Part shown: in pieces, positions 2,860 to 64,000 of the stretch | How positions within the stretch are numbered: position 1 is the stretch's first letter | Layout: every line of letters starts with the position of its first letter | NCBI RefSeq assembly: GCF_051622035.1 | Contig: NC_135355.1 | Location: 29,048,986-29,112,985 of the forward strand | From: Arctopsyche grandis | Lineage: Eukaryota; Arthropoda; Insecta; Trichoptera; Hydropsychidae | Direction: 5' to 3' | Length of the DNA: 64,000 nucleotides | Made by a program: the position numbers and the translations under genes | Notes under the pieces: model-generated | The model's input: only the letters and a program-made list of their open reading frames with translations | Databases searched by the model: none | Told to the model about the DNA's origin: nothing

Positions 2860-4958
2860 TGTACATATGTACCTAAAAGCATCATTAATTAAGATTATTC
2901 AAAGAAAAATTTACGTCCATAAAATTTGGAAAACAACGAAATGTTGCATAGCACGTGCTGATTTTGTTTATCTGCGTAAATTAGTAAAATCAACTATGGA
3001 TGAATGCCGTAAAAAATATATTTTAAATTGTGAAATTACTCTATCTAAGGAGCCGTCTGCTTTCTGGTCACTTATTAATTCTAAACGTTTTACTAAAAAT
3101 GCGTTATGAAAACTGTGATGTACATGGTTCCCAAAATATTGCTGATAAGTTTGCTGAACATTTTAGCAATATTGTGCGGAGTAGTCAATCTGTACAAGGT
3201 CAGTCTAACAGTATATCAGACAATGGCTGGTTCCCCATTCTAAACCTAGATTGCTGCAATCAAAATGACTTAATTTATGGTTTTAACAGACTGAAACCAA
3301 AACTGTCGGCTGGTCCAGATCTCATTCCTGCGTATGTGTTGAAAGCTTGCAAGCTCCTTTAACGCAACCACTATGCTTTATCTTCAATTTGTCATTAAAT
3401 TCGGGAATTTTTCCTGATTTTTGTAAAATCACAAAAATTGTTCCCATTTTTAAAAAAGGTGACATTTTATCAATAACAAATTATAGACCGGTTGCGCTAC
3501 TTTCTGCTCCTGCCAAGGTGTTCGAGGCAATTTTACATCGGTATATCTACAATCACTGTGAACCATATTTGATCGATCAACAACATGGATTTAGAAGTTC
3601 TCGTTCAACAGTTACTAATTTATTATGTTTTTCCAATTATGTAACCAAATCGGTTGATGCGGGAAACCAAGTTGATGTAGTATATACCGATTTCATGAAG
3701 GCCTTTGATATGGTAGACCATAATGTTTTGTTTGTGAAGTTAAGAAATTTTGGGTTATCAAATGGCTTAATGCAACTTATACAAAATTACTTTGAAAATC
3801 GGAGGCAATTTGTAAATTTTCACCCTAATTCCTCAAATGAGTTTATTCTTATTCTTTTAATGGGACATTATTCTTTTTAATTTACATTAATGACATCTCA
3901 AAAATAATTAAGTATTCAGATTATCTTTTATTCGCCGATGACCTTAAGCTTTTTATGACAGTTAAGTCTCATAGTGACGCAGCCCTTCTCCAATTGGACT
4001 TAGATGCGCTGTCAAGTTGGTCTGTCGATAATAAATTATTTTTTAGCATTCAAAAATGCTGTGTTCTCAATGTGACAAGATCTTCAAATCGCTTGATTTA
4101 TCCATATCGCCTAAGTGGTGTTGAATTAAAGTTTGTGGATGAATATTGTGATTTGGGGGTCTTGTTCTAGAATAATTTTCAATTTAAACGACACATAGAC
4201 AATATTTGTTTGCGTGCAACAAAAATGCTGGGATTCTTACTAAGAGTTGGTGCTTAAAATTCTTTATGAATCTTTAGTACGTAGTATTCTAGAATTTTCT
4301 TCTACTATATGGAATCCTACCCATATAACTCATTCATTGAAGATTGAGAGAATCCAAAAACGGTTTCTCAGATATCTTTATTTGAAACAGAATGGTTATT
4401 ATCCTTGGCTATATCCTAGTGCATTCCTATTAGGGGCGTTAGGTTTCAACTCATTGGAGTCTCGTCGGAATATGTTACTGGGAAGGCACTTTTTTAAGCT
4501 GTTGAATGGGATAATACACAATCCTCAGGTTCTAAATGAATTTAGGTTTAATGCACCTTGTAAATTCAGGGACTTGAGAAATCGTGATTTGTTTGTTCCT
4601 CTGTGGCTCGCACAAATATGTTGTCAACGGCTCCTATATCTAGGGCGATATATCTGCTTAACAGGATTTCTGGTGAAATTGACCTCTTCAATATAAAATA
4701 TACTAATCTGGTTGAGTGGTTGTTGAGGAATGCCAGTGGTTGATTTTGCCTATTATAAATATTAATGATTGTTATTACTTTATCTATGTTTTTTCTTTTT
4801 TTTATGATTTTATGATTTTAATGATGTTGTGTTAATATTGTTATTATTATAAGTTATTATTACTGTTATCATGTTATCATTACTGAATGACCGGCCACAG
4901 CGACGCGTTGGAGATCTCTGTAATGTCACTGTGGCTAATATGTTAAATAAATAAATAA
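2860..4958 (+). mobile_element. Degraded non-LTR retrotransposon (Jockey/CR1-like LINE)
   Basis: Three frames together cover a reverse transcriptase: an N-terminal part with LSAGPDLIPAYVLKACK (3030-3362), a core with PIFKKGD, NYRPVALLS, QHGFRSSRST and DFMKAFDMVDH (3347-3880), the catalytic FADDLKLF (from about 3931) and a C-terminal part (3955-4696). Frame changes near 3100, 3350 and 3880 and stops near 4170 and 4250 show it is dead. The endonuclease half is absent, so the copy is 5' truncated. The 3' end carries a hairpin-forming sequence (GCCACAG with CTGTGGC, 4894-4933) followed by TAAATAAATAAATAA, as in other LINE/SINE tails of the window. Confidence 0.85.
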
Positions 4959-18100: not shown

Positions 18101-21100
18101 CTATAAATTCTCCCAATTCGATATTTCGCAAAAAAATACCGCCGGCTCAGAGCACGGAAAATCATCGAGTTTTCCGGAATACGTCATACTACCACAATTT
18201 CTTTCAGTATTGCGGACAAGTTTATTTTCCCAAGTTGCAAATCCTGCTTCATCGAGCTCTTCACCTGTAAAAACATTCATAAATTTTATTTAATGTACAT
18301 AATAAATATATACTTATGTATATATAGCTTTAAAAAATAAATTCTGTATTTTTTAGTCCACCATACATTATTTGTATATGTATATACATACATACATATG
18401 CACATATGCAAGTATTTGATTACTAAGCAAACATAATAGTATCTAATGAATTGTTTATATACCAGTAATAGTAGTGAAATGACTTTCTTCGAAAAGGTCG
18501 TGGATTCCCACGAGGGCATTTTCTGGATATTTGACATGCATAATCCTGTTTGCCAAATTATTGAAAATTTTCATCAAGAAATCTCTTTCCCTTAAATCAT
18601 TAATGACAGCTAAATAGCCACCTTCAGCTGCGCATATGGATCTAGCCACGCCCCAAGGCTGTGGATTCAAATGCAACTTGTAACCATGGTGTAACTGTTC
18701 CTCGTATTGATAACCTTAAATGTAAAATAAATTTATATTTGAAATTCAACTGAATTTGCAGCAATTAAAGACAAATTTCACAAACCTGGATCATCACTAT
18801 AGCAATTGTTATGGCGTTCAACAAAATTTGGAACCGCTTTTCGCTGACAAACAAAAACAGTCTCACTATCGCAAGATACATCATTCAATTTTCCATTGCG
18901 ACCCATCGAAACACAATGCTCTGAATTTTCCGAGTTATCTGGCTGTCCTGCATTCCATTCCCGATAATAATATTGAATAGAATAACCTAAAATCAAAAAA
19001 ATATGAAATTTTACATTTATTTCAATAATAGTATTTATAATTTTTTAATAAAATAGCCTCTGTTTATTGCGATTATAAATAGTACAATAGTAAATTTTTT
19101 TGGCGTTCCAAGAGCGAGTAAAAGTTCGAAAAAAGAGGCATAAAGATTAACTTTTTTAAGAAAATTTAAATGCAGTTAAGATTTGTAGTCAAGTTAAGTT
19201 AAAACTAGTGGTTCTAAATTGGAATGTTAACACATATCTATTTATATTTCAATGTAAATATAAAATTAGTTCTGCCATCGCATAATATTCGATAGTTCAT
19301 TCCTTAAATTTAATACTTTCGAGAATTTCGATTACGTCCATATTAGGGTTTCTGATTTCTGATTTCCCCAATTGTCGGGATACGAGACGGAGCTCGAAAG
19401 CGTTCCCAGGATTCCCGGGATCCCGGGACATATGATGTAAAAATAAATCAATTGAATTTATATTTAATTACTATAAAATTTATTTTGTATTACTATAAAA
19501 TTCATTTATTTCAAAACTATTAAAAAAATAAACAATAGGTCTCAAAAATGGAAAAAGTGTATAGAAATAGATTGTTAAGAAAACTAAAATTTTGAAATTA
19601 GAATCCGAAAGCCTATTTCTAGATTTGGCACAAATATTTCTCTAGCAATGGAAAAACTCTTTCAGTTTCGTTCGAAGTTGGTTATATAGCTAAAAGGGAC
19701 GAAAACAATTTTTCAAAATATGTGTTTTCTCCTGTCATCCTGTATATTATCATTTATTTCTTTTAGTCTATGCTATTTTTATTCACATTATTTTGTCTTT
19801 GATAACTCATTTAATTCTCAATAACACACAATTGTCTCATGTTAATCAGAATCTAAAATAGTTTATTTATTAAAACATTTAAAGAAATATTTGATTGAAT
19901 CATTTTTCCCGGGATTTGAGATTCCAAAAAATTCCGTGATTTCTCTTGAATTTCTGTCCCGGATCGACCCGGACAGAATCCCTAATCAATATGTGGCATC
20001 CAAATTTTTACAATTTACATGTTTTATATTTAAAGAATTTCTTAGGAACACAACTTCTAAAAGCTATTTACATAAATAGGAAAAGATAATAAGTAAAGCC
20101 CGGACCCTGAGGGGGCTGTATATTGTTCAAATGTTGTAAATGCATTGTTAAATGTTTGCCGAACCTTTTTTACAAAGGATTTACAACAATTGAACAATAA
20201 ACGGCACGCTTCCGGTCCTACCTCTAATAATAAGAGTGTATGTACATGTATGTATGCTACACACAAATATAAATATGATTAGTTTTATTTGAAAACGCCG
20301 AAAGTTATTTACAGAAAATGTTTACCTTCTGTTGTGACGTATTCCCATTTTGAAAACAAATCATGAAATCCTAAGTGCATATAACTTTTACTATCATCTG
20401 TATGGATTTTGAATATTTCCAGCAAAGCCTCTGCCTCGTCTTTATTCGTCGGTGTTGCTAATGTCGCATTATGAGCTCGACAAAGTCGTCTTGCATGATT
20501 CCACTTTCGCGGATTTGAATGAAAATGATAATATATATCTAAATTTTGATAGTAGTCGTATTCTGAAAAATTAAATACATAACAGATTGAAATAAATGAT
20601 AAAAAAATATTATACATACATATATAACACAAATTGCACGCTTATATAATATAGTGTAAATATCACATTGTATTGAGACATTACAATACAACGTGACAAT
20701 ATACAAATATAGAATACTTTACTGTTTCATATTATGTAGTAACTAGAGGTTGTGATCGAGAAATCTCGTCTCGAGATTTCTCGAGAATTCTCGAGAAATT
20801 TTGATTCTCGTTTCTCGAGAATATTTTATTGTAAAATTTCGAGATTCTCATTTCTCGAGAATATTTTATTATGAAAATTCGAGATTCTCGTATCTCGAGA
20901 AATCGTTTACTAGAATCTCGAAAATATCGAGAATATTCTTAATTTATCACTACATGTTTTTGCTCAATAAACTGACTGATTTGTATACTTGTTAACTCGT
21001 AAATAATTTTATGAAGTATTGTAATATGTATAGATGGTCAGTATTTTTATTATTTGTCCGGTAAGTTATTATTCGGTCATCATATAAGTACATATACACA

Positions 21101-24035
21101 TGTTACAACGAAATCGCACCATTTTTAAGTTACATATATGTATGTGCATGTAGGTACTAGTCACTAGTGCGAAAGTATTCGGTTATGATATCACTGAAAC
21201 GCTAGTGAAAATATATTTTCACTGACAATATGACCCCACTTAACACACATAAAACGTTTTTGATTTTTGATTTATTATTTATTTATTCGAGTATTTGTTC
21301 CTTAGATATTAATCAATTTATAGTCAGTATTTTAATATGTATAGATGGTCAGTATTTTTATTATTTGTCCGGTTACAAAAACACGGGCAAAGCCGGGTAG
21401 CAACACTGGGAATTTTATAAAATTAGTAAAAATATTGTTATTTTTACTATTTTAAATTACTTTTGAATATTTTTATTTTCTTTTCATGCCTTCTTTTATA
21501 ATATTTTTTTTTATATTATTTTACTTTTTTTCTATTCAATGTTCTATTGTATCTCTCTATATCTTTCTTTCGTTATGTCTTTAATAAAGTTATAAGCCCC
21601 TGATAGAATATATGTACATATGTAGTGTTTGTGTTCTTTTGTTGTCAAGTTTATATGCTAAAAAAATCAATTCACTATATTAAAAAAAAATTATACTTTC
21701 TCGAGAATTCTCGAGAATCTCGAGAAACAAAAAAAGAAAATCTCGAATTCTCGAGATTCAAATATTTCGAGAAAATAAGTTTCTCAAATCTCGAGATTCA
21801 AATATTCCGAGAAAAGGAGATTCTCGAATCTCGAGAATCAAAAAAAGTCGAGAAATCACAACCTCTAGTAGTAACTAATTAACAATTTAATTAGTCAATG
21901 ATTTTTTGATCATAAATCGTGATATACATAAATATACCGTGCTCGTATTGTATGTTTCCAATACAGTTCCTTGTGTGAAAATTACTTTCGTAACCAAACT
22001 TTTCACAAAAGAAAAACGAGGGTTCAAAACAGCTATAGTCACTCAACTCTCCAGTATCTGTTATAGCGCCACAGTTCCTATTTGTAGCACTGTTGATAGC
22101 ACCTCCTTTCCAAGTGAGTCCAGTCGTATTTAAATCTTCACCTGAAACATTTTTATGAAATATAACATATTTTGCATGATAAAAAACCGCAACTAGTCAG
22201 AATATGAATCAAATTACCAGTTACTGTTATGAATTGCCCTTCATAAAAAAGGTCGTGAAATCCCATCAAAGCAATTTGAAGGGTATCTTTTTTCATTTGA
22301 TTCTTGACTGTTTTTAATATCTTCACAAGAAAATCTTTCTCTTCTATCGTGTTGATGATAGCTAAATGACCACCTTCAGATGAACACACTGATCGAGCAT
22401 CTTTCCATAGTTTCAAAGTTGTGTGAAGCTTGTAACTTTTATTCAAACTTTCCAAATAATGATACGCTGAAAAAGTACATATTTTGAAATATGAGTTAAC
22501 TCATATCTATTGAAGAGTATAATACCTGTTTTCGGTTGATTGTTGACATATTTTTGTTGGCATATGAATACGCCTGGAGTATTACAATCCAAATCATTTA
22601 ACTTTCCCTCGCGATGTAAAGATCCACAATTTTCTCCTGGGTCTGAATTATCGGGTTGCTTATCTTCCCATTTATTATAGTAATAGTCCAGTGACTCTCC
22701 TTCAATCGTTAAAAACGTTAAAAACGCAGAAACGAAACAAATCGATGTCAATTAGGGTTTCTGTCCAGATCTTTTTTATCCAATATTTTTGTAGGATTCT
22801 TAAGAAACTATTTAAAATAAATTTATTTATATTATAAATAAATTTATATGTAAAATACATTACATTTATTCCAGTTAATAGATATATTATTTACTTATTT
22901 TTATATTTTTGTAAATAAAAAATAAATTAAATTGAAAAAAAATTATATTGTAGGGAACCCGGGAATCCCGGGAATTGAAAAACTCTGAAAATTCAGAAAC
23001 CCTAAAGTCAATATATATTTGTTTACCACTTTCAGTGAGAAACTCTCCCTCCCTGAAAATATCATGAAAACCGAGAAATATATAATCATAATTTTTTATG
23101 TGTTTCAATGATGAAGCCGGATATTCCTTGAAAATAAATTTCAACACTTCGACTTCTGTATCAGTTTCTGGGATTGCAAGTGTAGCATTTTCAAGCCTGC
23201 ATATATTTCTGGCCTCATACCAAGTTTTAATATCTTTGTGGAATTTATACAACACATCTACATGAGGAAAAAATACGTATTCTGGAAGGTACAAAATCAA
23301 TGTATGTATAGCATTTTTATTAATCAGATTAAAATAATTGAGAATGTAATTGGAATTACCTGTCGTGTGGTTTTTTATATGCACTATATGATTTTTCTTA
23401 CATATAAATTTGTATTTCAAATCACACGGAATATCATTATATGTATGAGAAGTCAATAAACTCACACAATTTTCATTCCCACCACCATTGTTTGGTTCGC
23501 CCGGATTCCAATTTAAATATAAATTATGTACAGGTTTTCCTTTAACATTATTTATATTAATGTAAGTACGAGTACATATTATAATAATTAATACAATTCA
23601 AAATATGAATAAAAAAAAGACAATTTAAAAAATAATGAAAATTAACCGTCTGATTTTACGAAATTTCCTTCCTGAAACCCATCTGTGAGTCCCAGCATAT
23701 ACGACTCAGCACCGCCTATTAAAGATGCTACATCTTTGATCTCTTTGTCTGATGTCGGAATGTATAATTCCGACATTTCTTCACCGCATTTAGCTAAAGA
23801 TTCGACAAAGTTTTTTGCTTCATCATGTCTTTTATAGAAAGCTTTGTGTTCATCAATAAATATATAATCGCTTCTAAATTCTGGTGTGTCTATAAATCGC
23901 AAGTATAAACAACATGATCGATTGCATGTTTCATTCGTTTAATCATATTGTTTGAAACATACCTGTGCTACTGTAAACTATAACGATGTTGAGAGATATT
24001 AACAAAATTGTGATCAATTCCCGGAAATAGTCCAT
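18101..24035 (-). CDS. Gene A: secreted C-type lectin, five CRDs
   Basis: Eleven exons on the minus strand, all with GT/AG borders and phase 1 introns: 24035-23963, 23889-23647, 23539-23360, 23281-23027, 22699-22526, 22466-22218, 22141-21938, 20562-20326, 18986-18786, 18714-18463, 18264-18101. They sum to 2232 nt, a 743-residue protein. Exon 1 encodes a hydrophobic signal peptide starting MDYFREL. CRD1 (about 25-165) has EPN and YND; CRD2 (166-308) QPD and LND; CRD3 (309-459) has no EPN/QPD; CRD4 (460-605) QPD and LND; CRD5 (606-743) has no EPN/QPD and carries LDD. The core CRD cysteines are present, for example FVCQ, FFCE and FICQ ends. CRD2-3 and CRD4-5 are similar to each other, which suggests an internal duplication of a two-CRD unit. 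Introns are 59-327 nt except two enlarged by transposons. Alternative: exon 7 can read through to a stop at 21891, giving a three-CRD protein with exons 8-11 orphaned. I prefer five CRDs because exon 7 has an in-phase donor and no signal-peptide exon was seen before exon 8. Likely role by family: extracellular sugar recognition in immunity. Confidence 0.72.
19344..19984. mobile_element. hAT element, TAGGGTTTCTG family
   Basis: TIRs TAGGGTTTCTG and CAGAATCCCTA, with CCCGGGA-rich subterminal sequence and imperfect 8-bp duplications (GTCCATAT and ATCAATAT). The interior shares about 70 bp, in reverse orientation, with a coding-like remnant at 49213-49390. It lies in the intron between exons 8 and 9 of gene A. 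Confidence 0.7.
20095..20225 (-). repeat. Dispersed repeat, copy 1
   Basis: Reverse-strand match to 52641-52745 (AGAGGTAGGA, TTCGGCAAAC, TTTAACAATGCATTTACAAC, CCCCCTCAGG). It lies in the intron between exons 8 and 9 of gene A. The class is unknown. Confidence 0.6.
20744..21867. mobile_element. hAT element in gene A intron
   Basis: TIRs TAGAGGTTGTGA and TCACAACCTCTA with an exact 8-bp duplication GTAGTAAC (20736-20743 and 21868-21875). The subterminal regions are arrays of TCTCGAGA-like palindromes. No transposase is evident. It sits in the intron between exons 7 and 8 of gene A, on which the five-CRD model depends. Confidence 0.85.
22753..23004. mobile_element. hAT MITE, TAGGGTTTCTG family
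   Basis: TIRs TAGGGTTTCTG and CAGAAACCCTA with an imperfect 8-bp duplication (ATGTCAAT and AAGTCAAT). It is 252 bp long and ends 22 bases from a splice donor of gene A. Confidence 0.8.
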
Positions 24036-24458: not shown

Positions 24459-25744
24459 GGAAATTGGATTATTAGTCACATTGCCATCGCCCAAAAGAAT
24501 ATTTGGCACTCGAGCTCTCGTTAGTATTTTTTTTTTTTTTGATTTTTAAATGCTTTTTATTATTACGAAATTATGTTCACAATACATCTTATATCTATTT
24601 TAATAGCTACTGACCTACTGATCATTTTCTATTTTACAATTTAATTTAATTTGGTTAGTAATCATAGTATTATATTATTCTAATGTTAATCTACAGCATA
24701 ATAGGAAAAAGAGCTGAAAAACCTATTTACAATCCTTATAAATGTTCATAATACATCTAATACATAATATTAATTAAAGACTCTCTAAAGTCGATGACTT
24801 AAAGCAGATTGTGTTTAGGTAATCTGTGTCTATACCTGAAGGGTAGAAGACATTTTGTTGTAATCACCGAGACTCTTCACAAGTGTGTTAGTATGGTTAT
24901 TAGTGATTCTGTCATAGAATCTATTGGTTAGTTTGTTAGTAATGTCTGTAACAAACGGAATATTATATATGGCATGCAGTTTTTTCAAGTTAGTATATAT
25001 GGGTGTATTATAAATCATTTTTAGGGATTTATTTTGTATTACTTGGAGCTTGGAAAGATTAGTATTCGAGGCATTATTCCATACAGGTGAAGCATTGGTT
25101 AATAATGGTAATATGAGCGCGCGATATAATTTTATTTTGTTTTGAGTTGATAAAGAACTATGGCGATTAAATATTGAATATATTGAGGATATACCCCGCA
25201 TCGCCTTGCATTTCGCTGCCTCAATGTTAGGTGCCCATCTCATTCTTTTATCGAACGTTACTCCTAAATATTTTATTAATGACTGCCATTTCAGACTTTC
25301 TCCAGAGTTGATTTTCAGATCTGAACTTGGCTTATGCTTTCTAACACTAAAGAATATGGCGTCTGTTTTGGTTTGATTAATATGAATTTTCCACTTAGTG
25401 AAGTGTTCAGTCATTGTTTTAATTGCAAATTCAAGATTTTTAAGAATAGTGTCTGGTTTTTTGCTACTTGTGAAGCAAGCGGTATCATCTGCATAAGCAG
25501 TATCTTTTGGAATAGGTATGTCATTTATATATATATAGAGAACAAGAATGGGCCAAGCAAGCTCCCCTGCGGAACGCCAGCTGCGATTATTTTTGGAGAC
25601 GATAATTAATTATTTACGCTAACCACTAGCTTTCTAGTATGATAGTTATCATTAGTATGATGGATTTTTCGGCTGCCAGATGTTCGGTTATGGATATTTT
25701 AGTGACTTTTGGGTGAGTGCTTTGTGACCAATAATCACCGAACC
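24459..25744. mobile_element. Mutator-like TIR element, split by a LINE
   Basis: Terminal inverted repeats of about 37 bp (left GGAAATTGGATTATTAG, right end matching GGTTCGGTGATTATTGG on the other strand) are flanked by an exact 9-bp direct repeat, ATTTTTAAT, at 24450-24458 and 25745-25753. A second copy at 33056-33238 has the same ends and internal sequence, so this copy is interrupted by a LINE (about 24520-25615). No transposase is present. The 9-bp duplication fits Mutator-like elements; hAT elements make 8 bp. Confidence 0.7.
24520..25615 (-). mobile_element. 5'-truncated LINE, reverse transcriptase C-terminal half
   Basis: On the minus strand the frame starts with GVPQGSLLGPFLFSIYIND and AYADDTA (25609-25420), the RT core motifs B and C, and continues in frame through TEHFTKWKIHINQTKT, IKYLGVTFDKR and LPLLTNASPVWNNA to a stop at 24830. 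A poly-A tail appears as a T run at 24528-24540 on the plus strand. The coding part is uninterrupted, so the insertion is fairly young. It is nested in the TIR element 24459-25744. Jockey-like by motif style. Confidence 0.85.
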
Positions 25745-27605: not shown

Positions 27606-29674
27606 ATGAAAATAATTATTTTCTTATTGTTTTTCATCGTAACTTCAGCAAATGGTTAGTTTTTTGATGGGTATTATTTATTCGAAATCACATTTCTTAC
27701 GCATATTTATGTATAGAGTATTAATATTTAAAATGTATTATTTTATTTTTGACTTATTAATTTTTGTAATAATGATAAATTTTAAAGTATACATACATAT
27801 GGTTATTAGAGTTTTTATCTTGTCAACAATAATTACGAAATTACACATTAAAAGCAAAATTCCGAAATTAAATTTCGGAATAATATATAAAATTATTAAT
27901 CAAAAAACTTCTAAAATTTAGCAAATTTGTGGGGCCTGACTTTTGGGAACCATCCATCAGCAAATAATAATAAAGGTATGATAAATTTATTTACGAATAG
28001 TAAAAACAGAATTATGAATACTAAACAATTAATAGATCAATTGAGAATATTTTCAAAAACCCTTATTGTAGCTAAAAACAGATTCGATCAAATATTGAAT
28101 TATTATGTATATAACAAAAATATTTATAACATTTTTTTTGTATTAATACCACTATTCTAACAAATAAATAAATAATTATCACATATTCTAACAAATGAAA
28201 TAATTATGGGACATTCAAAAGAGATTTATAAACCCAAACTAATTTTTTTTTTGTGCTACGCTTTCCTTATTCAATAACTATCGAACGAAAACTGTCATAA
28301 TATACTGTCACGGTTGTGGGTTGAAAAAATTCTTATAAAGCCTTAATGCACTGCACTTTATGCAAATATGATATGTTTTTTTAATTTCATGTTTGAATTT
28401 TTTCAGAAAAATCCTCATTTAGATTAGATTATGAATATGTAGACGATCTAAAAAAATATTACAAATTACATAAAATACCCCTTTCTTGGGGAGATGCCGC
28501 CATGACATGCATGGCTGAAGGTGGTAATCTTTATGTACCTAATTCCTTTGAAGAATTGACAACTTTACAAGGAAAAGATCTTCTAGGTTCGTGGATTGGA
28601 GTCCACGATAAATACGCTGAGGGTGTATTTTACACAATTAAAGGTACATATAAATTAACATGAATCAATATTTTTTATATTGCGAGTTGTTGCTCAACCA
28701 TATCACAAAACTACACATATTTATTTAATAAAATATTGCAGGTCAAAAACTATCAGACAGTTATTTTAATTGGGCGAAAAATGAACCAAACGATTTAACC
28801 AAAGATGAAGACTGCGTGGCACTTAAAAATGATAAAACATATCAAGATTTGGGCTGCTTAAACAAGCTCAAATTCACATGTGAATTCAACAACCCAATAA
28901 TATACGATCAAAATTGTGACACGTATGACAATCGTAAGAAGTTTTATCGCACTGTTATACTTTATCCGTTATATAATGTGTCAGTATGATATTTTCAACT
29001 TGCTACAGTTGAAATATTGAATTTTGAGCACATTTATTTGATTTAACTTGCATATCGAATAAATTCATATTTATTCGAATTAAAAATCATGTTTATTTCC
29101 TTTCAGAATACACTTTGGAACCTTTCTTAGAAAAATGCTATAAATTACACAATACACCAATGACTTGGCATCAGGCAGTTAGGATTTGCCAAGCCGAAAA
29201 TGCTAATTTAGCATTCATTAATGATGAACGTGAAGCGAACCACTTAAAAAGTAAATTCATCCAGTTTGGGCTCCCGTATGGAAATATATCAATGCATATA
29301 GGACTTTCCGATTTAATAATACAAGGAATACCGATGAACTTGCAAGGTACAGAAATTATGCTAAAAATTTGATTAATTTATCTGATTTAAAAATCATAAA
29401 TTTTACTTGATTTTTAGGAGTCAAAGTATCAGAAACTAAATATAATAGATGGTCAAGTTATCAATTAGAAAATTTTCAAAGATGCGGAAGTGTGACCCAA
29501 GATATACTTTTTGATAAAATTGACTGTAATAAACGGTTAATTTTTATGTGCGAAAAATCATCAAAACAAAATACAAAATATCCAACATATACTTTTACCA
29601 ACTCAACCGAAGGTGAAACTAAATTGGAAACAACTACAGATTTGTATTCATCATCAGTGGTTTATGATGATTAA
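27606..29674 (+). CDS. Gene C: dual-CRD C-type lectin, degenerate CRD2
   Basis: Exons 27606-27654, optional mini-exon 27922-27975, 28407-28643, 28742-28933, 29107-29346 and 29418-29674, all phase 1. With the mini-exon the protein is 342 residues, without it 324. The start MKIIIFLLFF opens a short signal peptide. CRD1 has the mannose-type EPN motif, but the second calcium-site motif reads YQD instead of the usual ND pair. CRD2 keeps its framework cysteines, but the stretch that should hold EPN or QPD reads QLENFQR, and the ND pair is DKIDC, so sugar binding by CRD2 looks lost. After the last CRD cysteine comes a tail of roughly 38 residues rich in Ser and Thr, which could be O-glycosylated. 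The mini-exon adds 18 residues (ANLWGLTFGNHPSANNNK) between signal peptide and CRD1 and has correct splice borders. A possible polyadenylation signal lies at 29843-29848. The gene is divergent from gene A. Predicted secreted pattern-recognition or regulatory lectin. Confidence 0.85.
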
Positions 29675-42891: not shown

Positions 42892-43321
42892 TAGTTTATA
42901 AATATAATTCCTTGAAAAAAAGCATATTGTTTAACCACTTTAAGCGCCACGAGCGCACGGGTGCGCGCTCCTTCGTATTTCATGCTATGGGTGAAGAAAC
43001 CAAAATTAATTTTGGTTTCTTCACAATAATATCTAAAAATATCCTGTGATACTAATGACATTAAAAAAAGTCAATATTTTTCGTTAGTTTGTGAGATATT
43101 CGAGAGGTGGTCAAGGGTTGGCACTAAACACGAAAATAAAGTAATAAATTTTCTTCGAAAAATATTATCAATTATTTATTAATAAATGATCATTAATTAA
43201 GATACTAATTATTTTAAAATGTAAAAAATTGTGTTTAGTTTTATTTTATTTATTTTTCGAATAGAAGAATGTAATTCCGTGTGACGCAAATTATTTACGA
43301 AACACGTGTTTCGTTTATTAC

Positions 43322-43418
43322 TAACATTGAACAATGAACATTGCTCAACAGTCCGTTTCTGAGCATACTACCACAATGCTCTGGATTGTATGGTTGATCA
43401 TGTGCCCACTTATCAAGC
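43322..43418 (-). pseudogene. C-type lectin exon relic
   Basis: Read on the minus strand, this piece encodes LDKWAHDQPYNPEHCGSM followed by a stretch like LRNGLLSNVHC. It aligns with the last exon of genes B and D (second half of CRD2, for example DKWAPNQPDN and EHCGSM in gene B). The QPD motif has become QPY and the LND motif LSNV, and no splice acceptor, first half or tail was found nearby. The piece starts abruptly next to a sequence beginning GCGGATCCAGCG that looks like a repeat end, so the copy was probably truncated by insertion or rearrangement. It shows that at least one more lectin once lay between genes D and E. Confidence 0.7.
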
Positions 43419-43703
43419 GCGGATCCAGCGATTTTTCTAGGGGAGGGCGATTTCTAATTAAAAAAAAACACACACACACACACACACAGCAAATACTCAT
43501 AATAATCATTATATTTATTCACGATGCAATCAACAATAAAAATACAACGATTATAAAATTATATTAAAAAAAATGTTTCGATTCACTTGAACATATTGTT
43601 CACTAAATAAAAGAATTTTATAGGAATAAATTTAGATATTATAATAAACATATTATCTCTAATATATAATTTCGAAAGAGACTTTGCATATATGTATGTA
43701 ACA

Positions 43704-44076: not shown

Positions 44077-45031
44077 TATTTAATATATATTATTTAATAT
44101 ATTTAATATATATGGATATAAAAATAATTTAATATATAAACTATTTAATATATATGGAGAGTATATAATGCGTAGAGCACTGGATGGTTGGAAGGGTGGA
44201 GTGTCCATTGGTGGAAAAAAACTATCCAATCTTCGGTATGCGGATGACACAACGCTCATAGCTAATAATCATGAAGAAATGGCCGAACTGATCCGTCGTG
44301 TTGAGACAGAGAGTAATGTGCTTGGCCTCCAGATAAACCGTCCCAAAACAAAAATTATGATAATTGACCGTCACCAACAGCTGCAAAACAACAACTCAGC
44401 TTTAAACGGTATAGATGTGGTTGATAATTTTGTCTATCTGGGGTCACTCATATCTAACAACGGCGGCAGCGAATTGGAAATACGGCGCCGGATTACATTA
44501 GCAAAATCGGCAATGTCACAACTAACGAAGATTTGGAAGAATAGAGCCATTACAACTGCTGTCAAAATCCGTCTCGTGAAGAGTCTCGTTTTTTCTGTCT
44601 GCCTTTATGGTGTCGAGACGTGGACCATGAAGGCGGCGGATAGACGGAGAATCGATGCCTTCGAGATGTGGTCCTGGAGACGGCTACTGCGCGTACCTTG
44701 GACCGACAAACGCACGAATGTGTCTATTCTTGAAGAATTGAAAATCAAGGATAGACTGTCAACAATATGCCTGAAACGTATATTGCAGTTCTTCGGCCAC
44801 ATTGCACGAAGAGGTGAGGAGAGCCTGGAGCGGTTGGTTGTGGTTGGTAGCGTCGAAGGCAGAAGAGCCAGAGGCAGATCCCCCGCACGCTGGACTGACC
44901 AAGTATCTGCAGCGACGGGCGCTTCCACGGTAGCAAGTCTTCGCCTGGCCGAATTTAGAACTGAATGGAGGCAGCTGGTTGACCGCACATCATAGTCACG
45001 ATCCTCAGTAATGAGGGAACCGACAGCAATA
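44077..45031 (+). mobile_element. RTE-type LINE, 3' half with open reading frame
   Basis: An uninterrupted frame at 44168-44995 encodes 275 residues with LRYADDTTLIA (the RT catalytic motif), NVLGLQINRPKTK, FVYLGSLISNNGG and LRRVPWT-like C-terminal features, ending FRTEWRQLVDRTS. This is the common RTE-like endonuclease/reverse transcriptase C-terminus. The copy is 5' truncated. It is flanked by a 12-bp direct repeat TATATTAAAAAT (44065-44076 and 45032-45043), a good target-site duplication within the Helitron. Confidence 0.85.
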
Positions 45032-58454: not shown

Positions 58455-59720
58455 TTACAATATAATATTACTTAATTGTTTAGGCAACTTGGGCTTTAAT
58501 TCGCAGAAAAATACGGCGGGTACGGAACAAGGGAAATCGTTTATAACACCGTTTATATACATCGACCCACAATTTTCATTTCCTCCAGCGTTATCAGGTT
58601 GTCCAGAGCCCCATCTCACATATCCAGTATCTAATAAATCTTCCCCTGAAACGATCGAAAGAAAAGATAAAAATATGCAAACGTAACAATACCGTTGCGA
58701 TTGCGTCATAAGAAATACCTGTCACTGTGATAAAATGGTTCTCTTGATAAATGTCGTGGAAACCCAACAAAGCATAATCTTTGTGAATCAATTGAAGCAT
58801 CCTATTTTTTGGATTTGTGAACATTTCAACAAGGACTTCTTCCTCTTTCCTGCTGTTAATGATCGCCAAATGACCACCTTCCGCGTGACATATCGTGCGA
58901 GCATCTGCCCAAGTCTTTGCATTCAAGTGCAATTTATAACACGTGTTTAAACTCTTATAATACGTATAAGCTAAAATTAAATTATTACATATCATTAAAG
59001 GTACATTTCATTGTAATATTTTCAAGTTTTACGTACCGGGATCCGAGGTGAAACATTCTGAATTGTGGTTATTCGGTTTTTTTTTGTTTTCCTTTTGGCA
59101 AACAAACACACCGGGTACCGAACATGGGAAATCATTCAGACCTCCAGATCGATGCAACGAACCACAATCTTCATCTCCTGAATTGTCTGGTTGTCCACCA
59201 GACCATGTATGGAAAACATATTGTATAGCTTCACCTGAGTAATTAATTACAAACACGTTTACACACATAGATATACCGTGCTAAGGATATTTAAGATAAC
59301 ACCAAGTCAGTACCGTTTTCAGTTAGAAACTCTCCCTCATTGAACATATCGTGGAAATCTAAAAGTATAAAATCGGGATGTGTAACGCCTTGAAGTACTG
59401 TAGAAGGATAGTTTTGTAAAATTTGCAAAAGGGTTTCGGCTTCTTTTGAATTTTTAGGCATGGCTAAAGTCGCATCTTCTCTTTGACATATTCGCCTCGC
59501 ATCGAACCAAGTTGAAGGCATCCTGTGAAATTTATAAGATAAATCTACGTCTGGATAATAGACATAACCTATAAAATAAACAGTTGCAAATATTCGTTAT
59601 TCAAAAAAATACATATATAAAGATTATTTTACATATAAAGTTTTCAATCATACTTGAAGCTTCGATGAATGCGAAAAGGCTGCTGAAAGCGAACAGTATC
59701 TGAACGATGGAAAACTTCAT
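58455..59720 (-). CDS. Gene G: dual-CRD C-type lectin, QPD in both CRDs
   Basis: Exons 59720-59654, 59568-59314, 59234-59037, 58970-58719 and 58645-58455; introns 66-85 nt, all phase 1; 963 nt, 320 residues. The signal peptide starts MKFSIVQILFAFSS and ends near IEA. CRD1 (about 23-173) has GGQPDN, DEDCGSL and LND; CRD2 (174-320) has SGQPDN, ENCGSM and IND. Both are galactose-type. CRD2 starts with TCYKLH, so it keeps the extra cysteine pair of long-form CRDs. It is the most compact gene in the window, with no transposon in any intron. Its CRD1/CRD2 pair resembles the CRD2-3 and CRD4-5 units of gene A, which makes it a useful model for the ancestral two-CRD unit. It is head to head with gene H. 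Confidence 0.92.
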
Positions 59721-62985: not shown

Positions 62986-64000
62986 ATGTTGAGTCGTTGT
63001 AGCTCTTACAGCGTCATTGTTTTGACGCTAGTGTATACGTATCAGACAAATTCTCAAAAAACAGGTACATCTTATTTTAGCTACATACATATGTAGTTAT
63101 CATTTGTTTAATTTAATCGCACCAGAAAGTTTATACTGCTTTAATAATGTGCTTTATAAATTAGGTATTTACAACATAACGGGAAAAGTAGCGAAATTCC
63201 ACTGAGGTGCTACTTGTATTGAAAAATATGTATGCTTGCATATATGTACATAGTATGTACTACATACATACATATTTATGATATACATATATAACATATA
63301 AAAAGCCGATTATCAACGCGATTTGTCTGTCGTTCAAGGTCACTCAAAATTTTATTTTTAACTGAATGTTTAATTTTATAACGATCGCTCGAAAGTTTGA
63401 TCAATATGATTGCAAAATAAAAGGTTGATAATACATAGGTTCTCAAAAACAAGTCGAAATATGTATTCTTTTCTCACAATATGTAATTCTCTCAAAGTTA
63501 GTTGTAGCATAGCTCGTTATGAAAAAAATCGTAGCTAGCGATTTATTGACCAATAAATCGCTCCATGAATGGCCAGCTTTTGAGTTGTGATTTCATGGCT
63601 GCTACGAGTCAAAAGTCGTGAAAGATCATCAAATAAATATGGAACTGATAATGTATTTACTGATTGTGATTTTTTTTTTGCTTTACAATACTTAAAATAC
63701 TTTTTTAACACATTTTTTCAGTGATAGTAACTAAATTCCTCTCAGGTAACTAAAAAACTTTTTTTATTGCTTTATGCTATATGAATGTACATATTTATTT
63801 ATTACAGTCGTTTTTCATAGACTTTTTCATTAACATTATTTTGCAAATGCTAAATAATGCATAGATCTTCAGATATTTTATCAATTTTCGTACAATTTTA
63901 CATGTTATAGCACCCCAGTTATTTCGCAAGGACTATACATATTTGGAAGGATTCGATGCTTTCTACAAGGAGCACACCGTTCAGAGACAGTGGACAATGG
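62986..64000 (+). CDS. Gene H: C-type lectin, 5' part only (window edge)
   Basis: A signal-peptide exon at 62986-63064 (26 codons plus one base) starts MLSRCSSYSVIVLTL and ends at a GT donor in phase 1. The next exon starts after an AG at 63910 and runs to the window edge. Joined in phase it reads QKT-APQLFRKDYTYLEGF, then FYKEHTVQRQWTM. This matches the start of CRD1 in genes A, B and D (FRSDY, FRNDY, FRKDY). The first exon is too short to stand out as an open frame and was found by looking for an in-phase signal peptide. By similarity CRD1 is expected to be of the EPN class, but that part lies beyond the window. An initiator-like TCAGT lies at 62969-62973. Confidence 0.75.

Follow-up and report, generated by a model that had tools for sequence, protein, structure and literature searches.

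A probable five-CRD secreted C-type lectin in Arctopsyche grandis and its multi-CRD relatives

The immune C-type lectins of insects are usually described as proteins with one or two CRDs. In Arctopsyche grandis, five CRDs lie in series on the minus strand between positions 24035 and 18101, and the question is whether they belong to one secreted chain or whether the 1375 nt between CRD3 and CRD4 mark the border of two genes. The window, meaning the whole 64-kb stretch of DNA analyzed here, is C1:29048986-29112985 of a 475.7 Mb genome; counts from the genome search are lower bounds.

The gene model was rebuilt from the sequence. Eleven exons join to 743 codons followed by TAG, with GT/AG borders at 10/10 introns and phase 1 at every exon join. 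Pfam found five Lectin_C (PF00059) stretches on the joined chain (263 bits in total); Lectin_C was the sole family above the cut-off, and two other matches fell below it. The N-terminus of exon 1 was hydrophobic in a hydropathy scan, and no hydrophobic segment was seen by eye at the C-terminus. An earlier sequence-only reading had proposed eleven in-phase GT/AG exons, 743 codons, five CRDs, and one signal peptide, all of which were reproduced. The features are as follows:

23963 to 24035, minus strand: exon 1, signal peptide MDYFRELITILLISLNIVIVYS, the sole signal-peptide exon in the model
23647 to 23889, minus strand: exon 2, first half of CRD1, IML-A type
23360 to 23539, minus strand: exon 3, second half of CRD1, EPN motif
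23282 to 23359, minus strand: intron 3, 78 nt, open in frame
23027 to 23281, minus strand: exon 4, first half of CRD2, C type
22526 to 22699, minus strand: exon 5, second half of CRD2, QPD motif
22218 to 22466, minus strand: exon 6, first half of CRD3, D type
21938 to 22141, minus strand: exon 7, second half of CRD3 (without EPN or QPD) and a linker with TRNCIG; phase-1 donor ACG/GTATAT with a good score
20563 to 21937, minus strand: intron 7, 1375 nt, the CRD3-CRD4 junction
20744 to 21867, minus strand: hAT-like insertion in intron 7, 1124 nt, with ends TAGAGGTTGTGAT and the 8-bp target duplication GTTACTAC
20326 to 20562, minus strand: exon 8, first half of CRD4, C type; acceptor TATTTAATTTTTCAG with a high score
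18786 to 18986, minus strand: exon 9, second half of CRD4, QPD motif, and a linker with an extra Cys
18463 to 18714, minus strand: exon 10, first half of CRD5, D type
18101 to 18264, minus strand: exon 11, second half of CRD5 (without EPN or QPD), tail EISNWENL, and stop

The first three CRDs can hardly be separated, because the introns between them (introns 3 and 5) are only 78 and 59 nt long. Exon 3, intron 3, and exon 4 form one reading frame, from 23597 to 22890, that holds two Lectin_C stretches, the C-terminal part of CRD1 and the N-terminal part of CRD2. Since the length of intron 3 is divisible by three and no stop interrupts its frame, CRD1 and CRD2 are joined with or without its splicing. 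The earlier claim that at least three CRDs belong to one transcript is thus supported, and the two intron lengths on which it was based were reproduced. Each CRD is built of two exons bounded by phase-1 introns, so whole CRDs or CRD pairs can be added with the frame intact.

The junction of CRD3 and CRD4 is the critical point, and it has to be judged against the other lectin genes of the window. Six of these are complete and were modelled from phase-1 sites only (C and D, A and B refer to CRD types discussed below):

Signal exons at 59720, 55742, and 52512, minus strand: three two-CRD C-D genes
33982 (minus strand), 37356 (plus strand), and 27606 (plus strand): three classical A-B genes

Because phase-1 models also fit these six genes, in-phase joining is weak evidence of one gene; consistent phase-1 sets exist for each, and any two neighbouring lectin genes of the window would join in frame. 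In-frame joining was therefore rejected as a proof of one gene. The 1375-nt gap alone does not join CRD3 to CRD4 either, since distinct genes of the cluster can be about 1.4 kb apart from stop to next ATG (53957 to 52512). In leave-one-out scores, where each splice site was rated against the rest of the models, intron 7 ranked 25th of 35 for its donor and 31st of 35 for its acceptor, counted from the weakest.

Three partial features accompany these neighbours. An isolated relic at 43298-43453 (minus strand) corresponds to the second half of an IML-B-like CRD. Pieces at 62986-63064 and 63911-64000 (plus strand) appear to start a further two-CRD A-B gene that runs past the window end to about 66880, its signal exon being a guess. 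A possible extra 54-nt exon, ANLWGLTFGNHPSANNNK, lies in frame at 27922-27975 (plus strand) between the signal exon and CRD1 of the 28-kb gene.

A separate transcript starting upstream of 20562 with its own signal peptide had been named in advance as one of two observations that would speak against a single gene. A strict signal-peptide scan missed four modelled signal exons (59720, 55742, 52512, and 27606), and a wider setting with positive controls was adopted for this reason; it recovered 7/7 modelled signal exons, five of five on the minus strand and two of two on the plus strand. With this setting, no candidate for a spliced signal-peptide exon was found in intron 7. The same scan gave 152 candidate ATG-donor pairs from 98 different ATGs on the minus strand of the window, and 101 of 501 minus-strand windows of 1375 nt held none. 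An empty intron 7 is thus not rare in itself, but it still counts, because the positive controls indicate that a real signal exon would have been detected.

A signal peptide might also be continuous with exon 8. At 18 codons upstream of this exon, an in-frame ATG opens a hydrophobic run (MYNIFLSFISICYVFNFS, best mean hydropathy 2.64) that would be signal-peptide-like if unspliced, and two-CRD C-D genes with their own signal exons are present in the same window; the locus would then consist of a three-CRD lectin ending at 21891 and a CRD4-CRD5 lectin starting in intron 7. However, when the sequence upstream of the 35 non-first exons was read, a run of at least 2.28 after an ATG also preceded 3 of the 34 others (2.76, 2.33, and 2.28). 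None of these three exons begins a gene in the models, and the strongest run belongs to the last exon of the 59-kb gene, mid-CRD. Occasional runs of this kind are expected because T-rich tracts ahead of acceptors translate to hydrophobic residues. Moreover, a separate signal exon is used by all six other window models, and in a paralogous block on contig C11, described below, the region upstream of the exon 8 counterpart shows only MFIFLA in place of the hydrophobic run.

The transposable element in intron 7 bears on where a transcript could end. Its terminal ends and 8-bp target duplication are those of a hAT-like element. The 1132-nt insertion reported earlier, which left about 243 of the 1375 nt, agrees with the present 1124 nt plus one copy of the duplication, with 243 nt remaining. 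A frame read through the exon 7 donor stops after 15 codons, and the element carries eight AATAAA and two ATTAAA motifs, so a short three-CRD mRNA ending in intron 7, perhaps via poly(A) signals of the element, might be made alongside the five-CRD mRNA. Such motifs are expected in AT-rich DNA, however, and we regard the production of both forms as unlikely; a short form would in any case not contradict a five-CRD gene. With the element removed, the 204 nt between the stop at 21891 and exon 8 hold no AATAAA or ATTAAA, which is a poor fit to a separate three-CRD gene ending there, although a single ATTAAA overlaps the stop codon by one base.

Cysteine numbers point in the same direction. Counted without the signal exon, the joined chain contains 22 cysteines, while a split after CRD3 would leave odd counts of 13 and 9 in both products; the six other window lectin genes have 10, 8, 8, 10, 10, and 10 (6/6 even). 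Elsewhere in the genome, the six-CRD models C9a and C9b, also described below, have 28 and 29 cysteines, and twelve C11 exons have 30. Since C9b is odd, parity was rejected as a decisive test and is useful but weakened. The two extra cysteines of the five-CRD chain flank CRD4, one in each adjoining linker. Because both ends of a CTLD come near one another, these cysteines could form a bond with each other. Taken with the absence of a spliced signal exon, these observations make a division of the locus into two genes very unlikely.

Relatives elsewhere in the genome provide a further view of the junction. A search with CRD3-CRD4 gave at least 73 matches in at least five places: the window; C1 at 41.68 Mb, holding the exons of an A-B gene together with a partial second one; C9 at 14.80-14.81 Mb; C11 at 5.82-5.84 Mb; and a weak match on C7 at 16.59 Mb. 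A genome search with PF00059 added a few further single places. On C11, six CRDs lie in close series from 5831244 to 5824915, with two more C-D pairs upstream; no signal exon was included in the model of this block. A tree of 35 CRDs places each of the final four C11 domains as sister to one domain of the window gene: CRD2 (support 100/100), CRD3 (98/95), CRD4 (99/98), and CRD5 (98/91). C11 thus keeps the order CRD2-CRD3-CRD4-CRD5, and because the four domains pair one to one, the C-D-C-D order predates the split of the two loci. The linker after CRD3 is conserved as TR[NK]C[IL]G (TRNCIG in the window, TRKCLG on C11). The C11 intron between CRD3 and CRD4 is 539 nt long and contains neither a signal-exon candidate nor the ends of the hAT-like element. 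Since the same CRD3-CRD4 adjacency occurs there without the element, the C11 paralogue stands in for an element-free comparison.

The C11 block also bears on whether the window locus still makes a protein. A decaying or unexpressed array might be suspected from the transposable element in intron 7, the repeat-like inverted sequence in introns 4 and 8, and the lack of a sugar motif in two of the five CRDs. Yet no stop or frameshift interrupts the 11 exons, and over 573 codons of the four shared CRDs the two loci differ by a pS of 0.74, near saturation, with a pN of 0.29 and 52% amino-acid identity. Synonymous change near saturation with so limited an amino-acid change indicates purifying selection on all four shared domains. 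The motif absence in CRD3 and CRD5 is common to C11, and hence is probably old instead of recent decay. We therefore consider a locus that makes no protein highly improbable.

Over the whole of C11:5844026-5824915, C-D units occur five times on the same strand, and gaps of only 72 and 539 nt separate the last three. CTG/GTAAGT stands at the end of the D exon in both upstream units, and each D exon but the last has a phase-1 donor. This arrangement would allow as many as ten CRDs in one gene. Such a gene is not claimed here: in the units at 5842-5843 kb and 5837-5838 kb one exon is without a good donor, and the signal exon candidate at 5844026, whose best-looking donor is in the wrong phase, counts against it.

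Contig C9 carries two tandem six-CRD models, at 14814095-14809140 (912 codons) and 14806978-14801350 (908 codons). Each has one signal exon (MFQFILILFGFVLRFGDAA and MFQFILILLGFILRIGDAA, respectively), 12 CRD exons, and no stops; the models use phase-1 sites only, and a few acceptors were picked among near alternatives. The D-to-C introns measure 83 and 209 nt in one gene and 102 and 193 nt in the other, and none of them holds a signal-exon candidate. Introns this short could hardly accommodate both the end of one gene and the promoter of the next between CRD pairs. When the two copies were compared, dN/dS was 0.35 overall and below 1 in all six CRDs (0.22-0.65). Per CRD, dS ranged fivefold, from 0.09 to 0.48; this difference suggests gene conversion or unequal exchange between the C9 units.

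The existence of two six-CRD models in the same genome makes a five-CRD relative credible. The earlier description of the locus as an exception in a two-CRD family does not hold, since two C9 genes are modelled with six CRDs and C11 has at least six in series; judged from these gene models, the five-CRD gene is one of several multi-CRD immulectins made of repeated CRD pairs, not a lone oddity. Considering intron 7, the paralogous block, and the C9 genes together, a five-domain secreted lectin, as proposed earlier, is the best reading, and the gene very probably encodes one full-length secreted chain with five linked CRDs.

Within the genome, the 35-CRD tree groups CRD1 with the first CRDs of A-B genes (support 100/99). 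CRD2 and CRD4 are of the C type, a group that is itself poorly resolved, and CRD3 and CRD5 are of the D type. The sister relation of the two C-D pairs inside the five-CRD gene has moderate support (87/91). The gene may have arisen when an A-B gene fused with C-D genes, or may descend from an old A-C-D-C-D gene. In the accessible text of PMC7379682, IML-A, the first CRD of immulectins, has V, I, L, or A after Cys-4, and IML-B, the later CRD, has G. Over the 35 CRDs, this residue is V or L in 4/4 A types and G in 25 of the 31 others. It is V in CRD1, G in CRD2, CRD3, and CRD5, and V in CRD4, which departs from the IML-B Gly rule.

Canonical sugar motifs are present in CRD1 (EPN), CRD2 (QPD), and CRD4 (QPD), and absent from CRD3 and CRD5. 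Exactly one member is canonical in 10 of 11 C-D pairs of multi-CRD genes (window 2/2, C9a 3/3, C9b 3/3, and C11 2/3, the last counted over the three downstream pairs); the pairs are related by duplication and so not independent. Both members are canonical in all three two-CRD C-D genes. The canonical member is the D domain (EPN) on C9 and the C domain (QPD) in the block shared by C1 and C11.

A plausible mode of action can be outlined from these features. A signal peptide, an IML-A type CRD1, and then the C-D pairs CRD2-CRD3 and CRD4-CRD5 would be produced in one secreted chain, an immulectin-like plasma lectin with a C-D module repeated within the gene. Mannose-type ligands are associated with EPN and galactose-type ones with QPD, as given in the accessible text of PMC8235521. 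Ca2+-dependent sugar binding would thus involve CRD1 (mannose-type) and CRD2 and CRD4 (galactose-type), and CRD3 and CRD5, without a motif, are probably spacers or protein-contact domains. The product would most likely act as a soluble, Ca2+-dependent lectin for pattern recognition, with avidity raised by serial sugar sites. Agglutination, encapsulation, and prophenoloxidase activation are roles described for dual-CRD immulectins in the accessible parts of PMC8235521 and PMC7379682; by analogy, binding of repetitive microbial glycans by the five-CRD chain might lead to one of these responses.

More broadly, the multi-CRD genes may tentatively be viewed as a modular lectin system whose building block, the C-D pair, can be repeated to give soluble chains with five, six, or more domains. 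In such a system, a shared C-D-C-D block would follow different N-terminal modules, namely an IML-A CRD on C1 and, on C11, a C-D pair; each pair would usually carry one canonical sugar site, and the result would be a single-chain equivalent of oligomeric collectins. The five-CRD gene, the two six-CRD models, and the longer array suggest that valency itself evolves by in-frame pair duplication. With two, five, and six domains, these genes form a natural series in which avidity and specificity can be compared with how many CRDs a chain has and how its canonical and non-canonical CRDs alternate. Automatic annotation may split or fuse such multi-CRD genes.

Several other features were recorded. 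Inverted 22-nt near-matches of the TTCCCGGGATTCCCGGG type (91%) lie at 19403-19424 in intron 8 and 22953-22974 in intron 4 and are perhaps copies of one repeat in opposite orientation. Reverse-transcriptase frames occur at 3287-3880 (plus strand), 24830-25609 (minus strand), and 44084-44995 (plus strand); two exceed the RVT_1 cut-off and that at 24830 is just under it, with an A-run at about 24540, downstream of this frame and upstream of the five-CRD gene. The window gave no hits to Rfam at gathering scores and none in a tRNA scan. The genome gave one partial Gloverin match (32 bits, cut-off 25); to our knowledge, gloverin is confined to Lepidoptera. A scan of viral contigs confirmed no relative.

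Among known proteins, the mannose receptor family (MRC1, MRC2, and DEC-205/LY75) resembles the five-CRD chain in having many serial CTLDs, and 5xts, 5e4k, and 8k8h were among the PDB matches listed. Its members are membrane receptors, with a membrane anchor and cysteine-rich and FNII domains before the CTLDs, whereas the five-CRD chain has no other Pfam family over the cut-off and no hydrophobic C-terminus. The scallop lectins CfLec-4 and AiCTL-9 also carry several CRDs per chain, and they bind several microbial sugars (PMC12842671, accessible text). According to the same text, microbes are agglutinated by AiCTL-9, which in addition enhances encapsulation; phagocytosis is enhanced by CfLec-4, and the ligand differs among single CRDs. 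They differ in being molluscan and having four CRDs, and an independent origin is likely.

In insects, Lepidoptera have dual and triple CTLD proteins (PMC7379682, citing Rao et al. 2015), and in Mythimna separata 7 of 105 C-type lectins are entered as having "more than three CTLD" in table 5, six in the text (PMC9853324). As far as the accessible text of these two papers goes, domain order, exon structure, sugar-motif anatomy, and five or six CRDs are not given for lepidopteran lectins with three or more CTLDs. In the accessible text of PMC8235521 and PMC12979142, only single and dual CRDs are reported in the species covered, and that of PMC10312389 names a multi-CRD lectin only through a scallop reference. 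A full-text literature search, with most subscription papers outside its reach, did not turn up a lepidopteran lectin for which five or six CRDs were described. Three-CRD lectins of Lepidoptera are already known, as are predicted ones with more CRDs; five or six CRDs with the anatomy seen here were not found in the literature searched and appear new to that extent.

Lepidopteran immulectins, such as Manduca sexta IML-1 to -4, are also among the closest known systems. Like the modelled five-CRD chain, these are secreted and consist of Lectin_C (PF00059) domains without any other domain. Judging from the accessible text of PMC7379682, their first CRD is IML-A (EPN, Val after Cys-4) and the later CRDs are IML-B (Gly after Cys-4), a pattern seen here in CRD1, CRD2, CRD3, and CRD5 but not in CRD4, which has Val. 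Clustering of the genes is common to both, and a lineage-specific expansion of IML is reported in that paper. They have two CRDs, in contrast to five here, where C-D pairs and two motif-less CRDs are found. Because immulectins are defined by exactly two CRDs, the five-CRD gene is best placed beside the dual-CRD immulectins, as a multi-CRD relative, rather than among them.
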